Source: Caballeronia sp. TF1N1
Lineage (GTDB): Bacteria; Pseudomonadota; Gammaproteobacteria; Burkholderiales; Burkholderiaceae
Reading direction: 5' to 3'
Length of the DNA stretch: 64,000 bases
Assembly (NCBI RefSeq): GCF_022878925.1
Contig: NZ_CP084627.1
Coordinates: 248,001 to 312,000 of the forward strand
Each line of letters starts with the position of its first letter. Position 1 is the first letter of the stretch. Positions 24,420-36,216 of the stretch are shown here, piece by piece. Under the pieces are notes generated by a model. That model made no database searches, was not told the origin of the DNA, and worked only from the letters and a program-made list of their open reading frames with translations. The translations under genes were made by a program, and so were the position numbers.

Positions 24420-25464
24420 ATCTCGTTATTGGATTTTTGTGGGAGCGCTGACCGCGCTCGCTTCACTTTACGCTTGGTCCCATGGCTCGGAACTCGATCC
24501 ATCTGCTGCCCGAAGGGTGATTTTTGTATGCATGATGGGCGCGATCGTACTCAGTGCACGGGGCGCGCTGTCAAGCACATGGCGCTTGACAGCGCGCTTT
24601 GCCCTGCAGCGCAAGCAGGAGCAATTCGAACGCGATCCGCTCGCCCGGCTGAGTGCGGCCGAGACGGTGCGCAAAGAGTCTGTGCCGATCAAACGGGAAG
24701 CACTGAAATTAGCGCTTCGCGACCGCCATGGCAGGTGCTGGCGGTACCGCGATCGCTGGATTCTTGTGAGTGGCGACGAGTCGATCGTCAAACGCCTTGC
24801 GCCAGGGCTTGCCAAGAACGGCTATGAGATCACCAGTGGTGCGGTTCTGATTTATGCGGCGCAGACAATTGATTTTATCGATGCCGACTGGCTCGACCAG
24901 ATCCGTCGGTTCCGTCGCCGACGGCCCGTAGATGCGATCGTAGCCGTGATGTGCAATCGGCATTACAAGGACGCTCCATTTGATTCGGAAGAACTTGCAC
25001 AGCGGCTCACGCGTCAGGCTCGGACGCTGGGCTGGGCGGCGCCTGTGTATCTTGTGAATGCAAAGGATTTCGAGGACAAGCTCCCTGTCTCGGAGGAGGC
25101 CATTGGCATTCTTTGGTCCGATAGGCGTCTGAAAGCCGATGCGGTCGAACCCTTGCTCAGCGCGCTTGCTCATCGTCTTGCGGACAGTGGTGTAAGACGC
25201 CTCGCTCAAGATGCCCACGATCGGTATGCGGCGCAGGTATCGCAACACATCAGCGAGTTGCATGTCGGGCTTCGGCCGGCGCGCTTCAATGCCGCGTCTT
25301 CTTCATCCTCCCGGGCATGGCGCGCGGCACGCGCTTCGGCCGTCTCGATCGCCGGGCGCGGTGGAACCTTGTTGGCATCGACCGGATTGCCCGCCGGATC
25401 GAACGCAAAGATTTCGGTCAGGTCGGGCGTCGCCGACTTGAGCAGCCGGCCTACCGGATCGTAG
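24412..25464 (+). pseudogene. T6SS-associated membrane protein (TssM-like?), truncated
   Basis: The real coding part runs from a TTG at 24412, overlapping the upstream stop, to about 25265. It has a hydrophobic N-terminus (WIFVGALTALASLYAW), a second segment, and a soluble part with RDRWILVSGDESIVKRLAPG and DQIRRFRRRRPVDAIVAVMC, which recalls the N-terminal region of TssM/IcmF-type proteins, though that is tentative. After SELHVGLRPARF the frame runs antisense through the Rhs fragment as Ser/Ala/Arg-rich nonsense and stops at 25464. So most of the protein has been lost by a rearrangement. Confidence 0.6.
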
Positions 25465-26245
25465 GTGTAATCGGTCACCCCGCGCACATGGTCCTCGATG
25501 CGCGTCAGGTTGCCCGCCGTGCTGTACCCATAGGTGCGCTCGGCCAGCACATCGAGCAAATTCACCGAACTCACATGACGCACCGACATCTGTGCGAGCC
25601 GTCCCACCGGATCGTACTGGCGCGCCTGCGTGAAGCTGCGGTGCGTGCGCTTGATTTCCCGATGCAGCTTGTCGCGCTCGAAATCCATCAGCGGCTTGCC
25701 GTCGAGCATGACGCCGTGGACGTGGCCCGAGCCATAACGCAGCCAGTCGATGGAGCGTGTATTCGGCAGGATGGTCTTCGTGCGATTACCGAGCACATCG
25801 TATTGGTGGCGCGTGACGGTCGAATACTGGCCCCGGTAATACGGGCGAACGTGCTGCTCTTCGGCGATCAGGTTGTCCGCGTCGTCGTAATGCAGGCGGG
25901 TCGTGCTGCCAGCGGCCGTGGCGGTCGCGAGCCGCCCGCGCGCGTCGTAATAAAAACTCTCGGTCGCTTGCTTGCCGATCGTGCGCGCGGTGAGCCGTCC
26001 GATCGGGTCGCGCTCGTAACGCGTCTCGACGCCGGCTTCAGTCGATGCCGCCAGCCGCCCGGCATCGTCCCATGCATAAGCGACGCTGCGCCCGTCGAAC
26101 CCCGTCTGCTCGATGACCTGACCGAGCGCGTCATAACGAAACTCGGTAGATTCGTGGTTCTCGTTGTTCAGCGTGGTTAGCCGCCCCTGCTTGTCGTAGC
26201 GGTACGCGACGCGGCCCCAATCGTCGCCTTTCACGTCGGTTTTGC
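25290..26245 (-). pseudogene. Rhs core fragment, both ends missing
   Basis: About 310 codons on the reverse strand encode Rhs YD repeats, for example GRVAYRYDKQGRLTTL, RYERDPIGRLTARTI, FYYDARGRLATAT and DYTYDPVGRLLKSAT. Rhs proteins form a shell around a secreted toxin. Neither the N-terminal part nor the core-closing motif and toxin tip is present. One end abuts the truncated T6SS gene and the other abuts the cas3 remnant, so the piece is a recombination scar. The open frame extends on both sides (25206-26588) but those parts are antisense to other genes. Confidence 0.85.
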
Positions 26246-26255
26246 GGCACTCGTT

Positions 26256-27488
26256 TTGCAGTCTGCGTGGAGCTTGCATCAGGATGAGCAGAATCACGAT
26301 GTCGATGCAACGACCGGCAAGCGCGTGAGTTTTGGCCTTATCCGAATGGCCAACATCAAGCCGTTGTTCGATGTTGCCCGGGCGATGTATCGGCAAGGCG
26401 CGCCAGCATCCGGTGTGCATGTTCACTTGTGCGTGTATCACTCGCAGTTTGCATTGCTGGCGCGATCGCATATCGAACAGCAACTGGATTCGGTGTTCGA
26501 TCGTCGGGCGCAGGGAAGCGGCGGGAATCCTGCGTTGCGGCATCCATCGGTGCGCGCGCTGCTCGATGCGCATCCTGAGGAAGATCATCTGTTTATCGTG
26601 CTGGCGTCACCGGTGTGCGAGGTCGGGCGGGATTGGGACGCTGACTGGGCAATTGCCGAACCGTCGTCGATCCGTTCGCTGATCCAGCTTGCGGGGCGCG
26701 TGCGGCGGCATCGGGCGGGGGCGGTGGCGCGGGCGAATATCGCTGTGCTCGATACGAATCTTCGGTACTTCGAGCGACGTAATCCGAAGCTGGACGCGGT
26801 GTTCAGCAAGCCGGGGTTCGAGATGTCAGGCGGCGTATCTCGGGAGTCGGGCGAATCGGCCTATTTCTTCCATTTGCAAACGCACTTCTTGAGCGAGTTG
26901 TTGCCGCTGCCTGAAGGCAGTCATTCGTGGCCGATCGATGCTCGGCCGCGTATTTGTCGCGCCGACAAGTTGAAGCCTTCCAAGAGCCTGATCGACCTGG
27001 AGCATGGCCGAATGCGTGACACGATGCGGCCGCGCGATGCGAGCAGCATGTCACGTACGCGCATATCGCACGATGCCACGCGGCATTGGCACGCCACGGA
27101 CGACGAGCGCGTTCGAATCTGGTTGACGGGTGTGCTGCCGCAGATGCAGCGCTTTCGTCATGATCCACTGCGACGCGAAGATATCGCGTTGCTGCCTTCG
27201 GAGGACGAGGATGAGTTGCGGTTGCATCGGGTTATCGGTCGGCGGGAGCGAGGGAACGCGCCGTATGTCGATATTCACCACAAGTTCAAGCAGATAGCTG
27301 ATTCCGAGTTAGTCGGCCCGGGGATTGGTTCGTGGTGTCATGTCGAATTGATGGACCTATTACGGCAATGGGCGGATGCGCACGGACAGAGCGCGTTGGC
27401 TAGCGCGGAGAGGGTTGCTACGGTTAGCTTGCATGAATCGCAGAATGGGTGGTGGTTTCACTCGGTGCTGGGGTTTAGGGAGGAGTGA
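26256..27488 (+). pseudogene. cas3: Type I-F cas3, C-terminal third only
   Basis: Type I-F Cas2-3 is normally about 1,050-1,100 residues: Cas2 domain, HD nuclease, two RecA-like helicase domains and a C-terminal domain. Here about 410 residues remain. GKRVSFGLIRMANIKPLFDV begins the second helicase domain; SPVCEVGRDWDADWA and SLIQLAGRVRRHR are helicase motifs V and VI; the C-terminal domain is complete. Cas2, the HD nuclease and the Walker A/DExH half are gone. No cas1 is upstream; an Rhs fragment abuts instead. A TTG at 26256 could start a product, but it could not degrade DNA. Confidence 0.9.
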
Positions 27489-27493
27489 GGATT

Positions 27494-27563
27494 TGCTGCC
27501 TGTTCGGCAGGAATGACAAACACTAAAGATTTGACTTTTTCTCAGCTACCTGCACGGTAGATC
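27494..27563 (+). ncRNA. Mini-CRISPR, candidate Cas-regulating RNA
   Basis: Two degenerate type I-F repeats flank a short spacer. The first has TTTGCTGCC and the perfect hairpin CTGCC/GGCAG (27497-27510 region), then GAATGACAAA in place of the consensus handle CTGAGAAA. The second has hairpin CTACC/GGTAG (27546-27560), a compensated change. Between the hairpins are 35 bases, against about 45 in the main array, leaving a spacer of about 22. Within it, 17 bases (27521-27537, CACTAAAGATTTGACTT) recur at 27616-27632 over the -35 box of the cas8f promoter. Cas6f could process it into a guide that represses cas transcription. Confidence 0.6.
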
Positions 27564-27615
27564 CAACAAACTACGTTAGCACGTTTGCAATTCACACATT
27601 TAAGAATTTTCGAAC

Positions 27616-27655
27616 CACTAAAGATTTGACTTAGTGAAGTCTGCTCCCTTAATCT
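27616..27655 (+). promoter_or_regulatory. cas8f promoter with mini-guide target
   Basis: TTGACT at 27626-27631, an 18-base spacer and TAATCT at 27650-27655 form a good sigma-70 promoter about 100 bases before cas8f. The 17 bases at 27616-27632 match the mini-CRISPR spacer and are preceded on the same strand by CC (27615-27616 overlap the edge of the match), the usual type I-F PAM. Confidence 0.6.
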
Positions 27656-27751
27656 ATTTCAGGCGAGTTCAGTAGTCAATCAAACACCGAATCTCGCCAA
27701 TAAAGTTGAGTGGTCCGTTGAATGCTTTTTTAAGGAAAGTTAGGAGAACAC

Positions 27752-29149
27752 ATGTCATGTTCACATGCGCCGGGAGCATCTGATTGCTTCCGCGCAGCAA
27801 TTGACGCCTTCTTGCCTGAACGTCTCCAAGCCAAACTGGACAAGCTTCCCCTCGATGATGCGAAGCGATCAGAACTGATCGCCGACTATCAACGCGGTCC
27901 GTGGCTTAATGACGCGGCAAGGCGTGTAAAGCATATACAGGTCGTTACGCATTCGCTGAAGGCGATGCATCCACGAGCACGCGGCACTAATCTCTACATT
28001 AAACCTACGGAGTTGCCTTCTCTTAGTGAAGTTGGCAGTCATGCGTTAGGTAATCACTTTGTGGTCGACGTAACAGGTGATGCGGGTGCTCTTGACGTTT
28101 ACAAGCTGCTTAAGATCGAGTCCGGTGGACGCAGTTTGCTTCAGGCTCTGCTGGACGACGACCAGGCGGCTCTACAGGCTCTCGCGGACGATCCTTCCGA
28201 GGCCAAGACGTTGCGAGAGGCGCTGATTAGCATCGTGGCCGAACGCGACGGCGGTCCTGCTTCCCACGGATACGCAAAGCAGTTGTACTGGCTGGTCGGC
28301 GACAACGCCGATGACGACGCGCAGTATCACCTTATTTCTCCGCTGCACCCAACCTCGCTTGCTCAGGTCATATACGAGGAAGTGCAAGACGCCCGCTTTG
28401 GTGATTCCAACAAGTTGGCGCGTCAAGCATATCGCGATGGCTCGATGTACGAGGGCGCTTATCGTGATTACCGTGATCTCGCAATTCAGAAATTGGGTAG
28501 CACTAAGCCGCAGATAGTCTCACAGCTCACTAGCGAGCGCGGGGGAAATAACTACCTGTTGTCGTCACTGCCGCCAATATGGAAAGCCCAACGCAACTTT
28601 CTTCCGGTACATACGACATCGATCTTCGCGCGATCCTTCGGCGCACGTCGCTCAGTGCGTGCTGCCGTTCACAGATTGCAGGAGCATTTGTCGAGCAGCC
28701 GTCCGAACAACATGCACTTTCGTGACCGCACGAATCGGCTAAGAGAAAGGATCGTCGACGAATTGGTTATCTATGCCGGAGAGCTATTGCTCCAGCCAGC
28801 AGGCTGGACGCGGGAACCTTGCTTCGACACGCTCGCTGAAGAGGAAAAGCTCTGGCTCGACCCGTTGCGTGCCGAATTGCCGGAAGAAGGCGACTTCCTG
28901 CAAAGATGGCTCGTTATGGACTGGCCCGCGCAGATTGGCATCGGCTTCGGCAACTGGCTCAACGGCCAGTTGCAGGACAAATTGACTCGTGTCAGCTTTG
29001 AGGAGGCTCGCGAATGGCGTAGAAAATTGCTAGGCGAGGGCAGTAGCTGGGTGCAACACCTGCGTGATTTGCGAGATCGACTTGGGGCGCCCCACTACAT
29101 CCCATTTCGCAAGACGCATGGCGAACTGACGGGGCATGAACGCGCATGA
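27752..29149 (+). CDS. csy1: Cas8f (Csy1), type I-F Cascade large subunit
   Basis: A 465-residue large subunit of the type I-F Csy complex, which holds the 5' handle of crRNA with Cas5f and recognises the PAM. The N-terminal half has FLPERLQAKLDKLP and QRGPWLNDAARRVKHIQVVT; the C-terminal part ends with the helical bundle (VSFEEAREWRRKLL). TAGGAG lies just before the ATG. It is slightly longer than the roughly 434-residue Pseudomonas protein. It is the first gene of the intact csy1-2-3-4 operon. Confidence 0.9.
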   Translation: MSCSHAPGASDCFRAAIDAFLPERLQAKLDKLPLDDAKRSELIADYQRGPWLNDAARRVKHIQVVTHSLKAMHPRARGTNLYIKPTELPSLSEVGSHALGNHFVVDVTGDAGALDVYKLLKIESGGRSLLQALLDDDQAALQALADDPSEAKTLREALISIVAERDGGPASHGYAKQLYWLVGDNADDDAQYHLISPLHPTSLAQVIYEEVQDARFGDSNKLARQAYRDGSMYEGAYRDYRDLAIQKLGSTKPQIVSQLTSERGGNNYLLSSLPPIWKAQRNFLPVHTTSIFARSFGARRSVRAAVHRLQEHLSSSRPNNMHFRDRTNRLRERIVDELVIYAGELLLQPAGWTREPCFDTLAEEEKLWLDPLRAELPEEGDFLQRWLVMDWPAQIGIGFGNWLNGQLQDKLTRVSFEEAREWRRKLLGEGSSWVQHLRDLRDRLGAPHYIPFRKTHGELTGHERA

Positions 29150-30213
29150 AGAACATTAACAGCGCTAACACCGCAAAGGCGTTGCTCGTGTTGCCTCATC
29201 TGCACGTACAGAATGCCAATGCCATTTCCGGCGCGTTCACGCACGGCTTTCCGTCCATCACTGCAACTACCGGACTCATGTGGTCTTTGCAGCGCAAGCT
29301 CACCATTGAGGACGTTCCGCTAAGGCTGCAACAGGTTGGCGTGATCTGTCATCGATACGACGAGCAGGTGGCCCAGGGCTACGTCAAGACATTCCGTTTG
29401 ACACGCAATCCCTTGGGCCGTGATGGCAAGCCATCCACGATCGTCGAGGAAGGACGAATGCACCTGGACATCACATTGGTGTTTCAAGTTTCAATCGACG
29501 ACGCTATCGCTTCATCGATACTGGACCATGAAAAGCAATATGCCGAATGGGCCGATAAGGTTGGGGAGATCGTGTCGCGCATGCGTGTCGCTGGCGGAAC
29601 GTTGCTGCCGGTCGGTCCCATGCCCGGACGGCGTACCAAACCCTGGATGGCCGAGCTCGCGGATAGCCACGACAAACGGGCGCGCGATTTCGCCCGATGG
29701 CGCCGTCAGTGGCTTCCGGGCTACGCGCTTATCGGCCGCGACGATATTTTGAAGAACCGCCACGACGCGTTGCGCGAAAAGCACCCTGACGCCAGCTTGA
29801 TCGATGCCTGGCTGCACGCTGCTCGATTCAATTATCAGCCCATGCCGGAAAAAGAAGCGGCCGATGACGCTGCATCGTCCACCGCACCCAAGCGCGTGCG
29901 TTGGGCCGATCCTAACAGACAAAAGGGCGAAGGCTGGACCGTGCCAATACCCGTGGGCTACGCCGCGCTCACTAAACCGTATCCAGCGGGCAGCGTCGAA
30001 AACGTGCGCGATCCGTCCATTCCGTGCGTATTCGTAGAGACGGTGTATTCAATCGGTCAGTGGATCAGCCCGCATCGGCTGAATAGTCTGGATGATTTGC
30101 TTTGGCGAGCGGAAACCAATACGGAGATCGGCTTGTATCGCTGTCGTAGCGGTTACGTACCCGATCGCTCCGACACCGAGTTGGACGATGACGAGGAATA
30201 CGAGTTTGATTGA
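29146..30213 (+). CDS. csy2: Cas5f (Csy2)
   Basis: A 355-residue Cas5-type subunit which, with Cas8f, caps the 5' end of the crRNA. The start contains LVLPHLHVQNANAISGAFTH and the conserved TGLMWSLQRKL. The C-terminal section has VENVRDPSIPCVFVETVYS. The ATG overlaps the csy1 stop (ATGA at 29146-29149), so translation is coupled and equal stoichiometry of Csy1 and Csy2 is expected. Confidence 0.9.
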   Translation: MKNINSANTAKALLVLPHLHVQNANAISGAFTHGFPSITATTGLMWSLQRKLTIEDVPLRLQQVGVICHRYDEQVAQGYVKTFRLTRNPLGRDGKPSTIVEEGRMHLDITLVFQVSIDDAIASSILDHEKQYAEWADKVGEIVSRMRVAGGTLLPVGPMPGRRTKPWMAELADSHDKRARDFARWRRQWLPGYALIGRDDILKNRHDALREKHPDASLIDAWLHAARFNYQPMPEKEAADDAASSTAPKRVRWADPNRQKGEGWTVPIPVGYAALTKPYPAGSVENVRDPSIPCVFVETVYSIGQWISPHRLNSLDDLLWRAETNTEIGLYRCRSGYVPDRSDTELDDDEEYEFD

Positions 30214-30280
30214 CCGCGGCGACCTTTCGCGTCCGTCGTGGTGTCCTTTGTTTTTATCTTGATTAGGAATATATAAAAAG

Positions 30281-31297
30281 ATGTCTGAGAAAATTGCTAC
30301 TGCTTCTGTCCTCGCTTTTGAACGTAAGCTGGATCCGTCCGATGCGGTCTTCCACTCTGGCCGTTGGGATGAACGCGACAACGGATCGAAATGGTCGCCG
30401 GTTCGTATCCGCGTGAAATCGGTTCGTGGGACGATTTCGAATCGGCTCAAGGCAAAGGGCGGTGATCCAGCCAAATTGGATGCAGCCGTCAATAATGCAA
30501 ACTTGCAGGCCGTGGACGTTGCTACGCTGCCGGCCGATGCCGACACGCTCCGAGTCACTTTCTCGTTGCGCGTTCTGTCGGGCACGGGCATGCCTTCGGC
30601 TTGTAATAACGCAGCGTATAGAGTGCGGCTTCAAAACGTGGTGAATGATTATGTCGCCAAGCATGACTTTACTGAGCTGGCTAATCGCTACGCCGCGAAT
30701 CTGGCAAACGGACGCTTCCTTTGGCGTAACCGTATAGGTGCGGAAAGCGTGGCGGTCGAAGTATCGCGTCAAAAGAACGGCGAGTGCGTACAGAAACTCG
30801 CGTTCGATGCGTTGTCGCTTGGCTTGCGCACGATGGATCAATTCGATTCGAATGTGACGGCGCTGGGCGGACTTATTGCCGACGGGCTTGCGGGTAGAAC
30901 CCATGTGCTTCTGCGCGTGACCGCGTATGTGCGTCTTGGCTTTGGTCAGGAAGTATTTCCGTCTCAAGAGCTGATTCTGGAGAAGACGGAAAAGAGCAAG
31001 ACGCTTTATCACGTGGAGAACGTCGCGGCTATTCACTCGCAAAAAATCGGCAATGCCTTGCGAACGATCGATACTTGGTATGAGAACGCGCTGGAATCTG
31101 GCCCGATTGCGGTCGAGCCTTATGGGTCGGTCACGACTCAGGGCACGGCCTATCGCCATCCGAAGCTGAAGCCGACGCAAGACTTCTACAACCTCCTCGA
31201 TGACTGGTTGCTCAAGGACAAGATGCCGGCGGTCGAGCAGCAGCACTTCGTCATGGCCGTTCTGATTCGCGGCGGTGTTTTTGGCGATGCGAACTGA
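30281..31297 (+). CDS. csy3: Cas7f (Csy3), crRNA backbone subunit
   Basis: A 338-residue Cas7f protein, six copies of which wrap the spacer part of crRNA. The start SVLAFERKLDPSDAVFHSGR and the segments RWDERDNGSKWSPVRI and LAFDALSLGLRTMDQF are characteristic. It is separated from csy2 by 67 bases, which carry AGGA and an A/T-rich stretch before the ATG, consistent with stronger independent initiation for the most abundant subunit. Intact. Confidence 0.92.
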   Translation: MSEKIATASVLAFERKLDPSDAVFHSGRWDERDNGSKWSPVRIRVKSVRGTISNRLKAKGGDPAKLDAAVNNANLQAVDVATLPADADTLRVTFSLRVLSGTGMPSACNNAAYRVRLQNVVNDYVAKHDFTELANRYAANLANGRFLWRNRIGAESVAVEVSRQKNGECVQKLAFDALSLGLRTMDQFDSNVTALGGLIADGLAGRTHVLLRVTAYVRLGFGQEVFPSQELILEKTEKSKTLYHVENVAAIHSQKIGNALRTIDTWYENALESGPIAVEPYGSVTTQGTAYRHPKLKPTQDFYNLLDDWLLKDKMPAVEQQHFVMAVLIRGGVFGDAN

Positions 31298-31302
31298 CGG
31301 CC

Positions 31303-31869
31303 ATGACGACTCACTATATCGACATCACGTTACGACCCGATCCGGAGTTTAGCCGTGTGCATCTGCTTGGCGCTTTGGTGGCGAAACTGCATCGCGCGTT
31401 GGTGGAGTTTCGTGCGGACGACATCGGGATTAGCTTTCCGCAATACAGTTTGAGCCCGCGTTTTCTGGGCGATGTGTTGCGCCTGCATGGCGACGAATCG
31501 CGATTGCAGGAGCTGATGGCACGCGGTTGGATGCAGGGTATGCGGGATCATGTGAAGCTTACCGACGTTATGCGCGTTCCGTCGGGGGCGATGCATCGCG
31601 TCATACAGCGGCGTCAATTTAAAACCAATGTCGAGCGGATGCGTCGGCGTCGAATGCGACGTAAGGGCGAGACGGAAGCGCAGGCCGCTGCGGCGATTCC
31701 GGACACGGTCGAGCGTCGGCCTGATTTGCCTTACGTGCATTTACGTAGCGCGAGTACAGGGCAGCCGTTTTGTTTGTTTGTCGATCAAAAGGGCGAGGTG
31801 GCTGCGAGCGTGCCGGGGACGTTTAATAGTTATGGGTTGAGTTGCGGAGCAACTGTGCCGTGGTTCTAA
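31303..31869 (+). CDS. csy4: Cas6f (Csy4), crRNA-processing nuclease
   Basis: A 188-residue ribonuclease that cuts pre-crRNA at the base of the repeat hairpin and stays bound to it. His30 in VAKLHRALVEF matches the catalytic His of Pseudomonas Csy4. The Arg-rich helix (VERMRRRRMRRKGE) is the RNA-binding helix that inserts into the hairpin. The C-terminal TFNSYGLSCGATVPWF resembles the family end. It starts 5 bases after csy3. It should process both the main array and the mini-CRISPR. Confidence 0.92.
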   Translation: MTTHYIDITLRPDPEFSRVHLLGALVAKLHRALVEFRADDIGISFPQYSLSPRFLGDVLRLHGDESRLQELMARGWMQGMRDHVKLTDVMRVPSGAMHRVIQRRQFKTNVERMRRRRMRRKGETEAQAAAAIPDTVERRPDLPYVHLRSASTGQPFCLFVDQKGEVAASVPGTFNSYGLSCGATVPWF

Positions 31870-32000: not shown

Positions 32001-34676
32001 GTTTGCTGCCGCGTAGGCAGCTGAGAAATGTCGCAAGCGCGATCGCGGTGCGTTCGTCGTGTTTGCTGCCGCGTAGGCAGCTGAGAAAAACAGATACCGC
32101 AGGTTTTCCGCTAGTGCGTTTGTTTGCTGCCGCGTAGGCAGCTGAGAAAATGCGCCGGTCGCGCCGTCGGGGTCAAGCGCCGTTTGCTGCCGCGTAGGCA
32201 GCTGAGAAATGCGAAAGTTGCTGCGCAGAGACGCCAAGACAGTTTGCTGCCGCGTAGGCAGCTGAGAAAAAGGTATCGTCGTGCGTGATGCCGCGCTCAG
32301 TGTTTGCTGCCGCGTAGGCAGCTGAGAAATGGGAGTGAAGCTTGTGAAGGTCGGCGAGGAAGTTTGCTGCCGCGTAGGCAGCTGAGAAAGATTGCCTCGT
32401 CGAGTTCCGACTTGATGTAATGTTTGCTGCCGCGTAGGCAGCTGAGAAAATGCAGAAAGCTCATTACCCGCGGGATTTTGCCGTTTGCTGCCGCGTAGGC
32501 AGCTGAGAAATCGAGCTGGGCGTCGTCGGCGACTTCCACCTTGTTTGCTGCCGCGTAGGCAGCTGAGAAATGCTGAAGGCATATCAATGACAGTCGGCCA
32601 ATGTTTGCTGCCGCGTAGGCAGCTGAGAAATGCATACTCGCGCGCGGGCGCATTGCCGGTCGGTTTGCTGCCGCGTAGGCAGCTGAGAAAGCGGTGATGT
32701 GCCGCGATTTCAACTGACTGGTGTTTGCTGCCGCGTAGGCAGCTGAGAAAGCTCAGCGCCGCGCAGATCGGTCAGGCTATGCAGTTTGCTGCCGCGTAGG
32801 CAGCTGAGAAATGACCACGTCACGAAGTTCGACACAATGAACGGTTTGCTGCCGTGTAGGCAGCTGAGAAACTATTCGGGCAAAAACCGGGTCGTCGCCG
32901 CAGCGTTTGCTGCCGTGTAGGCAGCTGAGAAAAGGAAGCGCCAGTTCTGCACGCAGTATCTGAAGTTTGCTGCCGTGTAGGCAGCTGAGAAACCATCCGT
33001 TGCCTCAAGCGCGGCGAACACATTGTTTGCTGCCGTGTAGGCAGCTGAGAAAGATCAGCGGCAACCGGTTCGGTGACAACACCTGTTTGCTGCCGTGTAG
33101 GCAGCTGAGAAATCTTGCTTGGCGCTCTCTGCAATTTTCGATTGGTTTGCTGCCGCGTAGGCAGCTGAGAAAGACCCAGACGTCCCGATATTCCCGCAAA
33201 TAAAGTTTGCTGCCGCGTAGGCAGCTGAGAAAAATAGAAGCACTTGAGCAAGGAATGCATCGTCGTTTGCTGCCGCGTAGGCAGCTGAGAAAATTACCGA
33301 AGAATGCGCCCGCATACATGGAGCGTTTGCTGCCGCGTAGGCAGCTGAGAAAGCCAATCGAAAATCTTCAGTTGCGGCAGCATAGTTTGCTGCCGCGTAC
33401 GCAGCTGAGAAACTCCTATGCTGCCGAGATCGTCTCGGCAGACAGTTTGCTGCCGCGTAGGCAGCTGAGAAACTAGAAGGGCGTGCCGGTTTCGGTCTAC
33501 TCAAGGTTTGCTGCCGCGTAGGCAGCTGAGAAAGTCTGCGGGTCTTCCACAACACAGGAATTGTATGTTTGCTGCCGCGTAGGCAGCTGAGAAAAGCTTC
33601 GTGTCTTCGCGATACCAGGGGTCGATGTTTGCTGCCGTGTAGGCAGCTGAGAAATGACAAACGTTTGCGCGAGCGAGCGAGATCGGTGTTTGCTGCCGTG
33701 TACGCAGCTGAGAAAGTGACCTTTGAATTGACTCATGCGCCCTGCTGGTTTGCTGCCGCGTAGGCAGCTGAGAAAGGCACGTCAATCAACGCGAGCTCGC
33801 TCTCCAGCGTTTGCTGCCGCGTAGGCAGCTGAGAAAGATTCGCCGCCCCGCTTTCGCAGGATCCGCGAGTTTGCTGCCGCGTAGGCAGCTGAGAAAGTAC
33901 GTCGGCGTGCATGTGATCATTGGGGACCGTTTGCTGCCGCGTAGGCAGCTGAGAAAACGAAATGTACGCATGAACATCGAACATGAGATGTTTGCTGCCG
34001 CGTAGGCAGCTGAGAAAAATCATCAGCGGGTGCAATCGCGCGCAAAGCACGTTTGCTGCCGCGTAGGCAGCTGAGAAAGAATCCAACCACGAGGAGAAAT
34101 CAGATGAACAGTTTGCTGCCGCGTAGGCAGCTGAGAAAAAGATAAAAGCCGACCGCACATAAGGCCATGCGTTTGCTGCCGCGTAGGCAGCTGAGAAAGT
34201 CAAGACGTTCTTCGAATCGCAGAAGGCGACGTTTGCTGCCGCGTAGGCAGCTGAGAAAATTCGCGTGGCACTTTTATCAGCTGATGCGCAGTTTGCTGCC
34301 GCGTAGCAGCTGAGAAAATGAGCGATCTCACTGCGCTTGAAGCTTGGGCGTTTGCTGCCGCGTAGGCAGCTGAGAAATCGTCACGATATTCAAACTCGGG
34401 GGAAGGAAAGTTTGCTGCCGCGTAGGCAGCTGAGAAAAGCAGCTCACCGTCGAGCGATACGACGCGCTGGTTTGCTGCCGCGTAGGCAGCTGAGAAACTT
34501 CCCTGCGGGAAGGAGCGAGTCGCCCTCTGTTTGCTGCCGCGTAGGCAGCTGAGAAAGTTCGCACGAGAAGAACGGGGTTCCATCGATGGTTTGCTGCCGC
34601 GTAGGCAGCTGAGAAAGCCGGGCAGCGCGCAGTGGTACGGGCAAACGAGTTTGCTGCCGCGTAGGCAGTTGAGAAA
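32001..34676 (+). CRISPR. Type I-F array, 45 repeats and 44 spacers
   Basis: The 28-base repeat begins GTTTGCTGCC, has loop GCGTA closed by GGCAG, and ends CTGAGAAA, the type I-F layout. Spacers are 32 bases, sometimes 33 and once 31. Variants occur: repeats 15-19 (32844-33112) and the one at 33627 have loop GTGTA; 33385 and 33688 have a C that breaks the top stem pair (33688 also has the GTGTA change); 34291 lacks one base; 34649 has GCAGTT. No terminal degeneration is seen at this end because an IS element follows. Confidence 0.97.
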
Positions 34677-34682
34677 ATAAAA

Positions 34683-36051
34683 GAACCTGTCCGCATTTTT
34701 GTGTGCGAGGCGGTTAGCGGAGTCACCCGCGTGCGTTGGTAAAACGCTCTCCAAACAGGATGGCAAACTGGTTCATCGCGGACGACCAGTCGAACGCCGC
34801 GCGTACTGACTTTGCCAGCACGTTGCGCAATGCCAGCCACAGCAGCTTGATGGCGGCCTCGTCATTGGGGAAGTGGCCGCGTGTCTTGATGATCTTGCGT
34901 AGTTGCATGTTCAGACTCTCAATGGCGTTTGTGGTGTAGACGACACGGCGTATGTCCGGCGGAAACACGAAGAACGGTGTGACGTTCTCCCACGCCCGTC
35001 GCCACGACTGCACGATAGTCGGATACTTCGCACCCCACGGGCCTTCGGCAAAGGCCTCCAGGGCCTGCTGAGCGGCCTGTTCACTCGCGGCGGCATAGAC
35101 CGGCCGCAGCGCTGCGGCCACGCTCTTGCGGTCCTTGTAGCTGGCGTACTCCAGACTGTTGCGGATCAGATGCACGATGCAGGTCTGCACGGCCGTGCGC
35201 GGGTACGCCGTGCCAATCGCCTCAGCCAGTCCCTTCAGGCCGTCGACCACCGCGATCAGGATGTCCTGGCAGCCCCGGGTCTTCAGTTCGTTGAACACTT
35301 TCAGCCAGAACTTCGCCCCTTCGGTCTGTTCGATCCACAGGCCGAGCACATCGCGCTGGCCGTCGGCCTGAATACCCAGCGCCAGATACACCGCCTTGTT
35401 GCTCACCACGCCGTCGCCACGGATCTTCACACGCAGCGCGTCGAAGAACACCACCGGGTACATCGGCTCAAGCGGACGGCTTTGCCAGGCGAGCGCTTCA
35501 GCCATGACTTCGTCGGTGACCGAGCTGATGAAATAGGGCGAAACCTCGGTGCCATAGGCTTCGGCCAGAAACGCCTGGATCTCGCGCACACTCATGCCGC
35601 GCGCGTACATGGCGATGATGCGCTCGTCGAAACCGGTAAAACGGCGCTCGTGTTTCGGAATAAGGATGGGTTCAAAACTGCCGTCACGATCACGCGGCAG
35701 ATCGACCCTGAGCGGGCCATAATCGGTGATGAGCGTCTTGCCGCCTGGCGCCGTTACGTTCGTTGTCCTGGCCGTCGGGTTTCGGCTGCCCCGCCAGGTC
35801 GCCCAGATGCATCTTCATCTCGGCGCCCATCGCGCGCTCGATGAGTGCCTTGTTGAACGCCAGCATCAGGTCCTGGACCTCGGTGGGCGTCATCGGGCCT
35901 TTGACCAGGTCATCCAGCAGACCTTCCGGAAGGGCAGGCAGCGGCCCTCGGGCCGCTGCCTGAGAAGCGACGGTGCGTTTCTTCTTCATCGGCATATCCA
36001 TGACTTTTACCTCTCATAATATGCCTCGCCCACAGAATTACGGATAGGTCC
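34683..36051 (-). mobile_element. IS256-family insertion inside the CRISPR array
   Basis: The left end (ACCTGTCCGCA from 34685) and the reverse complement of the right end (ACCTATCCGTA, ending at 36049) are imperfect inverted repeats that extend through GCGAGGC on both sides. The element carries one reverse-strand transposase split by a frameshift. The bases flanking the two ends do not repeat each other, so the 8-9 bp target duplication normal for IS256 is not evident. Boundaries are accurate to a few bases. Confidence 0.8.
34723..36001 (-). pseudogene. IS256-family transposase, frameshifted
   Basis: The N-terminal part (35690-36001) ends in frame as NERNGARRQDAHHRLW, which is out of register. 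The correct continuation is in another frame: GGKTLITDYGPLRVDLPRDR, then MYARGMSVREIQAFLAEAYG (34723-35610). The DDE residues are visible in VFFDALRVKIR, VVDGLKGL and TNAIESLNMQLRK. A shift of one base around 35740-35765 splits the roughly 420-residue mutator-type transposase. The family does not normally need frameshifting, so the copy is probably dead. Confidence 0.85.
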
Positions 36052-36081
36052 AACGCCAGTCAAGCTGCGATCCAAAACACA

Positions 36082-36216
36082 GTTTGCTGCCGTGTAGGCA
36101 GCTGAGAAAAATCATTGCGGAGATGAATAATTGACTGAGAGGTTTGCTGCCGCGTAGGCAGCTGAGAAAGCACACTGCGCTGGACGGCAACGCGCTGTCC
36201 TTTGCTGCCGCCTAGG
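36082..36216 (+). CRISPR. Distal end of the CRISPR array
   Basis: Two full repeats (36082-36109 with the GTGTA loop, and 36142-36169) and a degenerate last repeat (from 36201, TTTGCTGCCGCCTAGGC) continue the array beyond the IS element in the same orientation. The decayed final repeat marks the trailer end. From 36217 to 36402 I see no gene; ALDH begins at 36403. Confidence 0.92.

Follow-up and report, generated by a model that had tools for sequence, protein, structure and literature searches.

A minus-strand mini-CRISPR upstream of csy1 in a type I-F locus of Caballeronia sp. TF1N1 as a putative guide for autorepression of the Csy operon

Upstream of csy1 in Caballeronia sp. TF1N1, positions 27496-27560 (minus strand) probably constitute a type I-F mini-CRISPR of the CreA/CreR family, whose guide RNA would load the Csy complex and direct it to silence csy1-4, an autorepression. 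Positions are those of the window, the whole stretch of 64,000 nucleotides that was analyzed. The anatomy, strand, and register of the unit are plain in the window, and the unit, its target, and a Cascade-type mismatch pattern are conserved in relatives; the working proposed below would follow from the anatomy of the family and from published work on CreA and CreR. For the family, comparison of the loci strongly supports a crRNA-like unit that directs the Csy complex to the promoter of csy1, and the conserved arrangement suggests that the complex limits its own synthesis. The original prediction had already seen an autorepressor of the csy operon here. In that reading, strand, guide start, PAM, and promoter strength had been misread, and the published I-F CreTA of the same slot had not been weighed as a rival. 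If the reading is true, guide-directed autorepression of cas genes would extend to type I-F, to which the much-studied Csy complex and many anti-CRISPRs belong.

In the 7.07-Mb genome, the locus comprises, in order, a cas3 remnant, an intergenic slot, csy1-4, and a CRISPR array. The remnant (26256-27488, plus strand) covers C-terminal positions 736-1109 of the 1110-position Cas3f model, and a minus-strand RHS-repeat (YD) fragment (25206-26588) adjoins it near 26256. The slot between the remnant and csy1 spans 263 nt (27489-27751). It is followed by the open frames of csy1, csy2, csy3, and csy4 (27752-31869, plus strand), which encode the Csy complex with Cas6f. The array (32001-36169, plus strand) holds 46 repeats like GTTTGCTGCCGCGTAGGCAGCTGAGAAA and is interrupted by a Mutator-family transposase gene (34723-35610), with two repeats beyond it (36082-36169). 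None of the 43 array spacers matched the rest of the window (first 8 nt exact, at most 8 mismatches).

Within the slot, two degenerate CRISPR-like repeats surround one spacer beside the cas operon, as in CreR. Both hairpins of the original prediction are present and fully paired: CTACC-GTGCA-GGTAG (27546-27560), which would form the 5' end of the putative guide RNA and shows a compensated pair relative to the array stem CTGCC/GGCAG, and CTGCC-GAACA-GGCAG (27496-27510), its putative 3' hairpin. Read along the minus strand, the first hairpin (27560-27546) is followed by the 8-nt crRNA handle CTGAGAAA (27538-27545), identical at 8/8 positions to that of the array repeats downstream of csy4, and then directly by a 27-nt guide that extends to the 3' hairpin (27511-27537) and whose first 17 nt, AAGTCAAATCTTTAGTG, match the target. 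The G...A loop form of the array repeats is found in both hairpins on the minus strand only, an orientation shared by 51 of the 53 3' hairpins found across csy1 loci. Because the handle scores 8/8 here versus 3/8 directly after the hairpin on the plus strand, and because of the orientation of the loops, we placed the unit on the minus strand. The handle thereby needs none of the 2-3 extra bases previously assumed on the plus strand, and the guide start, previously uncertain, is fixed by a match that begins at minus-strand guide nt 1. The minus-strand RNA of the unit folds no better than shuffled sequences (z -0.61), and an Rfam search returned just minus-strand CRISPR-DR4 matches of 19 and 18.6 bits, below the gathering threshold of 35.

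The target lies between the unit and csy1. As originally noted, the 17 bases at 27521-27537 recur exactly at 27616-27632 and cover a TTGACT (27626-27631, plus strand); on the protospacer (minus) strand, guide and target agree at 17/17 positions from guide nt 1 and then differ at 18 and 21-23 (first 24 compared). Such limited complementarity of a spacer to a cas promoter is a feature of CreR. From a comparison with the promoters of relatives, we take the site to be the csy1 promoter, presumably 27626-27655 on the plus strand, with TTGACT as its -35 box and a weak -10 box, either TTAATC at 17 nt or TAATCT at 18 nt, where the related loci L004 and L005 have TATGCT at 17 nt. The good csy1 promoter once proposed was not recovered, as a sigma-70 search of the plus strand from 27480 to 27760 found none. 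The CC formerly read as the PAM (27615-27616) sits at the PAM-distal edge in the minus-strand orientation, and the PAM position itself (27634-27633, minus strand) reads CT instead of the CC expected of both I-F CreR and I-F CreTA. A search of the TF1N1 genome with a pattern of 15 fixed bases returned the two known exact copies and one site with 1 mismatch, and no further guide targets. Downstream of the target, the csy1 leader contains a hairpin, GGCGAG...CTCGCC (27662-27698), and hairpin-like stretches are similarly placed, by eye, in L004 and L005.

We propose that a leftward transcript would carry the unit, perhaps from a promoter-like site, TTGACT-17-TAGATT (27679-27651, minus strand). This candidate promoter for the guide unit is the single match of a minus-strand sigma-70 search that would be expected to give 0.3 matches in shuffled sequences (sd 0.5). 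Csy4 (Cas6f) would cut 3' of each hairpin and leave a short crRNA-like RNA composed of the handle CTGAGAAA, the guide of ~27 nt, and the 3' hairpin. Loaded into the Csy complex, this RNA would bind the csy1 promoter at its -35 region (27616-27632), and the bound complex may then block transcription of csy1-4, similar to CreR autorepression.

Because the PAM of TF1N1 is CT and its -10 box is weak, we would expect less repression here than in relatives, or its loss. It is possible, if rather doubtful, that the unit is a relic that descends from a working CreR or CreTA guide and represses no more, its PAM having changed and decay having followed the loss of cas1 and most of cas3. Besides the PAM and the -10 box, the state of the locus favors this view. 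The genome lacks cas1 and roughly the first two-thirds of cas3, as a profile search found no Cas1 match and no Cas3f match besides the remnant, although both profiles matched control genomes. The CRISPR locus may therefore be decaying, with cas3 truncated, cas1 absent, and the array interrupted. On the other side, guide and target still agree at 17/17 positions, the handle at 8/8, both stems are fully paired, and csy1-4 are open. In the I-F system of ICP1, which has a different canonical PAM, non-canonical PAMs other than CT were weaker but measurably active (PMC6452262). Since non-canonical PAMs still worked there, reduced repression is possible in the window, as is a relic.

The comparison of csy1 loci drew on genomes of the genus (csy1 matches in 9 of 58), family (14/398), order (20/399), and class (32/369), sets that overlap, and on plasmid records and named genomes (the best 80 of 155 in an alignment-based search). 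Sixteen plasmid records carried csy1, and four were taken in besides M1242. Left out were the class-level matches for G967, for G1110, and for a single piece of G1101, which were returned with no locus. L010, a duplicate of L005, was removed beforehand, and the resulting 148 loci, less 12 duplicates and 1 that was too short, gave 135 distinct loci. An earlier scan of genome contigs with Csy1 alone had confirmed no relative. In a target-blind test, the psi-repeat was picked without regard to any target, and the best site toward csy1 was scored at guide positions 1-5 and 7-11; CC and the remaining guide positions served to break ties, not to choose sites.

A psi-repeat with handle was found in 64 of the 135 loci, and in 54 of these 64 the best site before csy1 reached 9 or 10 of 10. 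A CC PAM accompanied 52 of the 54 sites; the window (CT) and L146 (CA) were the only exceptions. Guides of other loci gave 23 such sites in 1,280 trials, 8 with CC, and shuffled guides 22 in 1,280, 1 with CC. Also outside the 52 are L066 and L069, where the blind rule chose another repeat, and L019, L021, L031, L052, L097, L101, L103, and L125, with weak matches. L066 is the published I-F CreTA of Acinetobacter LoGeW2-3 and, as a positive control, has the same layout. In the 52 CC loci, mismatches fall at guide position 6 in 45, at 12 in 36, at 18 in 44, and at 24 in 43, against a chance expectation of 39 per position; positions 13-17 are mismatched in 57 of 260 cells and positions 19-23 in 136 of 260. 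Such a period of six bases agrees with Cascade, where each sixth base of the guide stays unpaired, as stated for positions 6 and 12 (PMC8501985). A later rule-based table, which admitted sites at at least 9/10 (positions 1-5 and 7-11) with CC, except L001 and L146 by name, yields unit and target in 55 of the 135 loci. Its 53 CC sites out of 55 and its few mismatches at positions 1-5 and 7-11 are partly so by construction, and 52/54 is the PAM figure to rely on because the table required CC. Among these 55 loci, stem pairs 3, 4, and 5 of the psi-repeat vary with pairing mostly kept. The remaining 80 loci showed no unit with target under this rule, including four from the genus or family (L008, L009, L011, and L012). 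L008 (the sequence of L074, C. concitans) has a perfect minus-strand handle and no guide site of at least 9/10 before csy1, so its target may be elsewhere or lost; in L009, of the window's genus, neither handle nor target was found. The comparison thus yields a search rule: a minus-strand hairpin and handle upstream of csy1, a CC site before csy1, and mismatches at positions 6, 12, and 18.

Two layouts share the cas3-csy1 slot. In 36 of the 55 loci, the distance from target to csy1 exceeds 160 nt. A Shine-Dalgarno mini-ORF occupies this interval in 31 of the 36, but in only 524 of 3,600 leaders after resampling and in 3 of 36 when the opposite strand is read. In the other 19, the window among them, the distance is 9-159 nt and no mini-ORF is found (distances are approximate, as csy1 start codons were set by script). 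The rule requires a mini-ORF to end 30 nt before csy1, and the 8 leaders under 72 nt lack room for one (0 of 800 resamples); in the 11 leaders of 72-159 nt, window included, the 0/11 is by itself weak evidence because only 47 of 1,100 resamples had a mini-ORF. A second difference concerns the hexamer beside the PAM, which matches TATAAT or TTGACA at no fewer than four of six positions in 15 of the 19 short-layout loci, versus 13 of 110 other hexamers beside GG in these regions, as in TATAAT-GG (L124), TATCAT-GG (L085, L095, L096), and TTGACT-GG (L004, L005, L006). The window is not among the 15, its TTGACT being one base off the hexamer register. The same score is reached in 15 of 36 long-layout loci versus 50 of 797 other hexamers. 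Since the window has no mini-ORF, and since targets of short-layout loci lie near csy1, mostly by promoter-like hexamers, we infer a CreR-like layout for the window, in which the Csy complex would silence its own operon. Whether I-F systems sense their own supply of Csy complex becomes directly testable with the 19 short-leader loci.

We regard it as quite unlikely that the unit is instead part of a CreTA module, whose guide would repress a small RNA toxin, creT, encoded between target and csy1, so that cells depend on the Csy complex. The published I-F CreTA occupies the same slot with its guide unit divergent from creT (PMC10097628), most long-layout loci have a mini-ORF, including L003 of the window's own genus (Burkholderia sp. 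Leaf177 in NCBI), and the window leader folds into a hairpin. However, the 119-nt leader (27633-27751) contains no Shine-Dalgarno mini-ORF, nor do the other short leaders of 72-159 nt. The rule sees ORF-coded toxins only, and an RNA toxin without an ORF is possible in the window leader. The same-genus loci L002 (C. calidae), L004, L005 (Caballeronia sp. M1242), L006 (C. megalochromosomata), and L007 all have the short layout.

Cas-regulating RNAs, or CreR, were reportedly described by Liu et al. in 2023 in Cell Host & Microbe. They are covered in reviews (PMC13131331, PMC12737573, PMC12948488), one of which names autorepression by CreR for subtypes I-B, I-E, and V-A (PMC13131331). No I-F CreR was found among the literature matches listed, a search that did not take in the original paper. 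The window resembles CreR in its mini-CRISPR, its limited match to a cas promoter, and the absence of a toxin gene between target and cas genes, as judged by the mini-ORF rule; unlike the CreR of I-B, I-E, and V-A, it belongs to type I-F and lacks the canonical PAM. Type I-F CreTA is known from Acinetobacter WCHA45, LoGeW2-3, and ANC3789, where the target follows the promoter of creT and precedes a mini-ORF of 33 bp (PMC10097628). As in these systems, the window has two psi-repeats and a shortened spacer in the cas3-csy1 slot, in a creA-like unit divergent from csy1, and its relatives share with them the CC PAM and the unpaired position 6 (PMC10097628). In contrast, the window has neither the creT Shine-Dalgarno sequence nor the ORF of ~33 bp, its target holds the presumed csy1 -35 box, and its PAM is CT. 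The CreTA of the haloarchaea H. hispanica and H. hubeiense (PMC8501985, PMC9458426) also has degenerate repeats, and positions 6 and 12 need not pair in that of H. hubeiense, but that system is archaeal, uses a TTC PAM, and targets an RNA toxin. By its layout the unit would work like a CreR, and it is kin to I-F CreA by slot and strand; CreA in the cas3-csy1 slot has already been published for I-F, and CreR has been reported for I-B, I-E, and V-A.

The 17-base repeat might also be a copied piece of promoter next to chance hairpins, which we consider very improbable. Guide and target agree in the window at positions 6 and 12 as well, a combination absent from the 54 other loci, as if a short tract were a recent copy. 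Yet diverged relatives keep the hairpin, handle, register, CC PAM, and mismatches at 6, 12, and 18, and swapped and shuffled guides seldom find such sites, which disfavors functionless tandem promoter copies for the family. When the intergenic region was resampled 5,000 times (first-order), no exact repeat exceeded a length of 13, versus the 17 observed. A plus-strand unit as first proposed, with a guide from near 27520 and CC at 27615-27616 as PAM, is scarcely credible, for although the CC exists and the handle reaches 6/8 with 2 extra bases allowed (hand count), it scores 3/8 without them, and the handles and loops of relatives favor the minus strand.

The window has its own oddities. It is the sole locus of the 55 that matches at both guide positions 6 and 12, and its match may therefore be newly copied and not a pair that has been maintained. 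Compared with L004 and L005, the spacer and its target show parallel changes, consistent with either recent short-tract copying between the two sites or a paired change. Position 6 of the target is an A in 17 of the 19 short-layout loci (the guide there has G in 9, C in 6, and A in 2), and with the hexamer in register this A is the first T of the hexamer on the plus strand. As a promoter, the spacer copy has a mean best match of 3.6 versus 4.3 of 6, and 12 of the 19 spacer copies still score at least 4. That the position-6 difference is under selection for a poorer promoter in the spacer copy is only an idea, as drift at this unread position would give most of the effect.

A Csy1 tree of 49 loci requires at least 9 changes of layout (well-supported branches force 8, and bootstraps give 9-10). 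This tree omits L146, L091, L048, L069, and L051 (long leader, no mini-ORF) as well as L062, whose Csy1 is short, and it supersedes a preliminary one of 133 rows with looser layout labels and 12 changes. L069, a near relative of the published L066, is probably a CreTA missed by the mini-ORF rule. We tentatively put forward, as the less likely way of reading the whole, that the guide unit of the cas3-csy1 slot in type I-F systems changed roles repeatedly, at times guarding a toxin (CreTA) and at other times serving to autorepress the Csy operon (CreR). In its CreR role, guide positions 1-6 would usually lie on a promoter hexamer, and the unread position 6 would differ in a way that makes the spacer copy, which has no PAM, less effective as a promoter. 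The window, reduced to Csy complex, array, and CreR without Cas1 or a complete Cas3, would then be an RNA-guided regulator kept without its cutting machine. Alternation of CreTA and CreR in one slot would offer a natural series for the passage from addiction module to regulator, or the reverse.

The creT-like mini-ORFs of the cas3-csy1 gap are ~9-15 codons long and often have adjacent AGA-AGA or AGA-AGG arginine codons near their end (L003, L014, L016, L040, L045, L066, L067, L080, L081, L094, L109, L113, L118, L120, L137, L144); others have TTA-TTA (L018, L077, L105, L130) or ATA-ATA (L013). These paired codons recall the tRNA-sequestering CreT of haloarchaea, whereas the I-F CreT of Acinetobacter has been proposed to act on ribosomal RNA. 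In L067, plasmid pVF1 of Vitreoscilla filiformis, cas3f is separated from the CreTA-like unit before csy1 by a stretch (477-1511) with a small gene, a toxin gene of the VapC family, and an XRE regulator.
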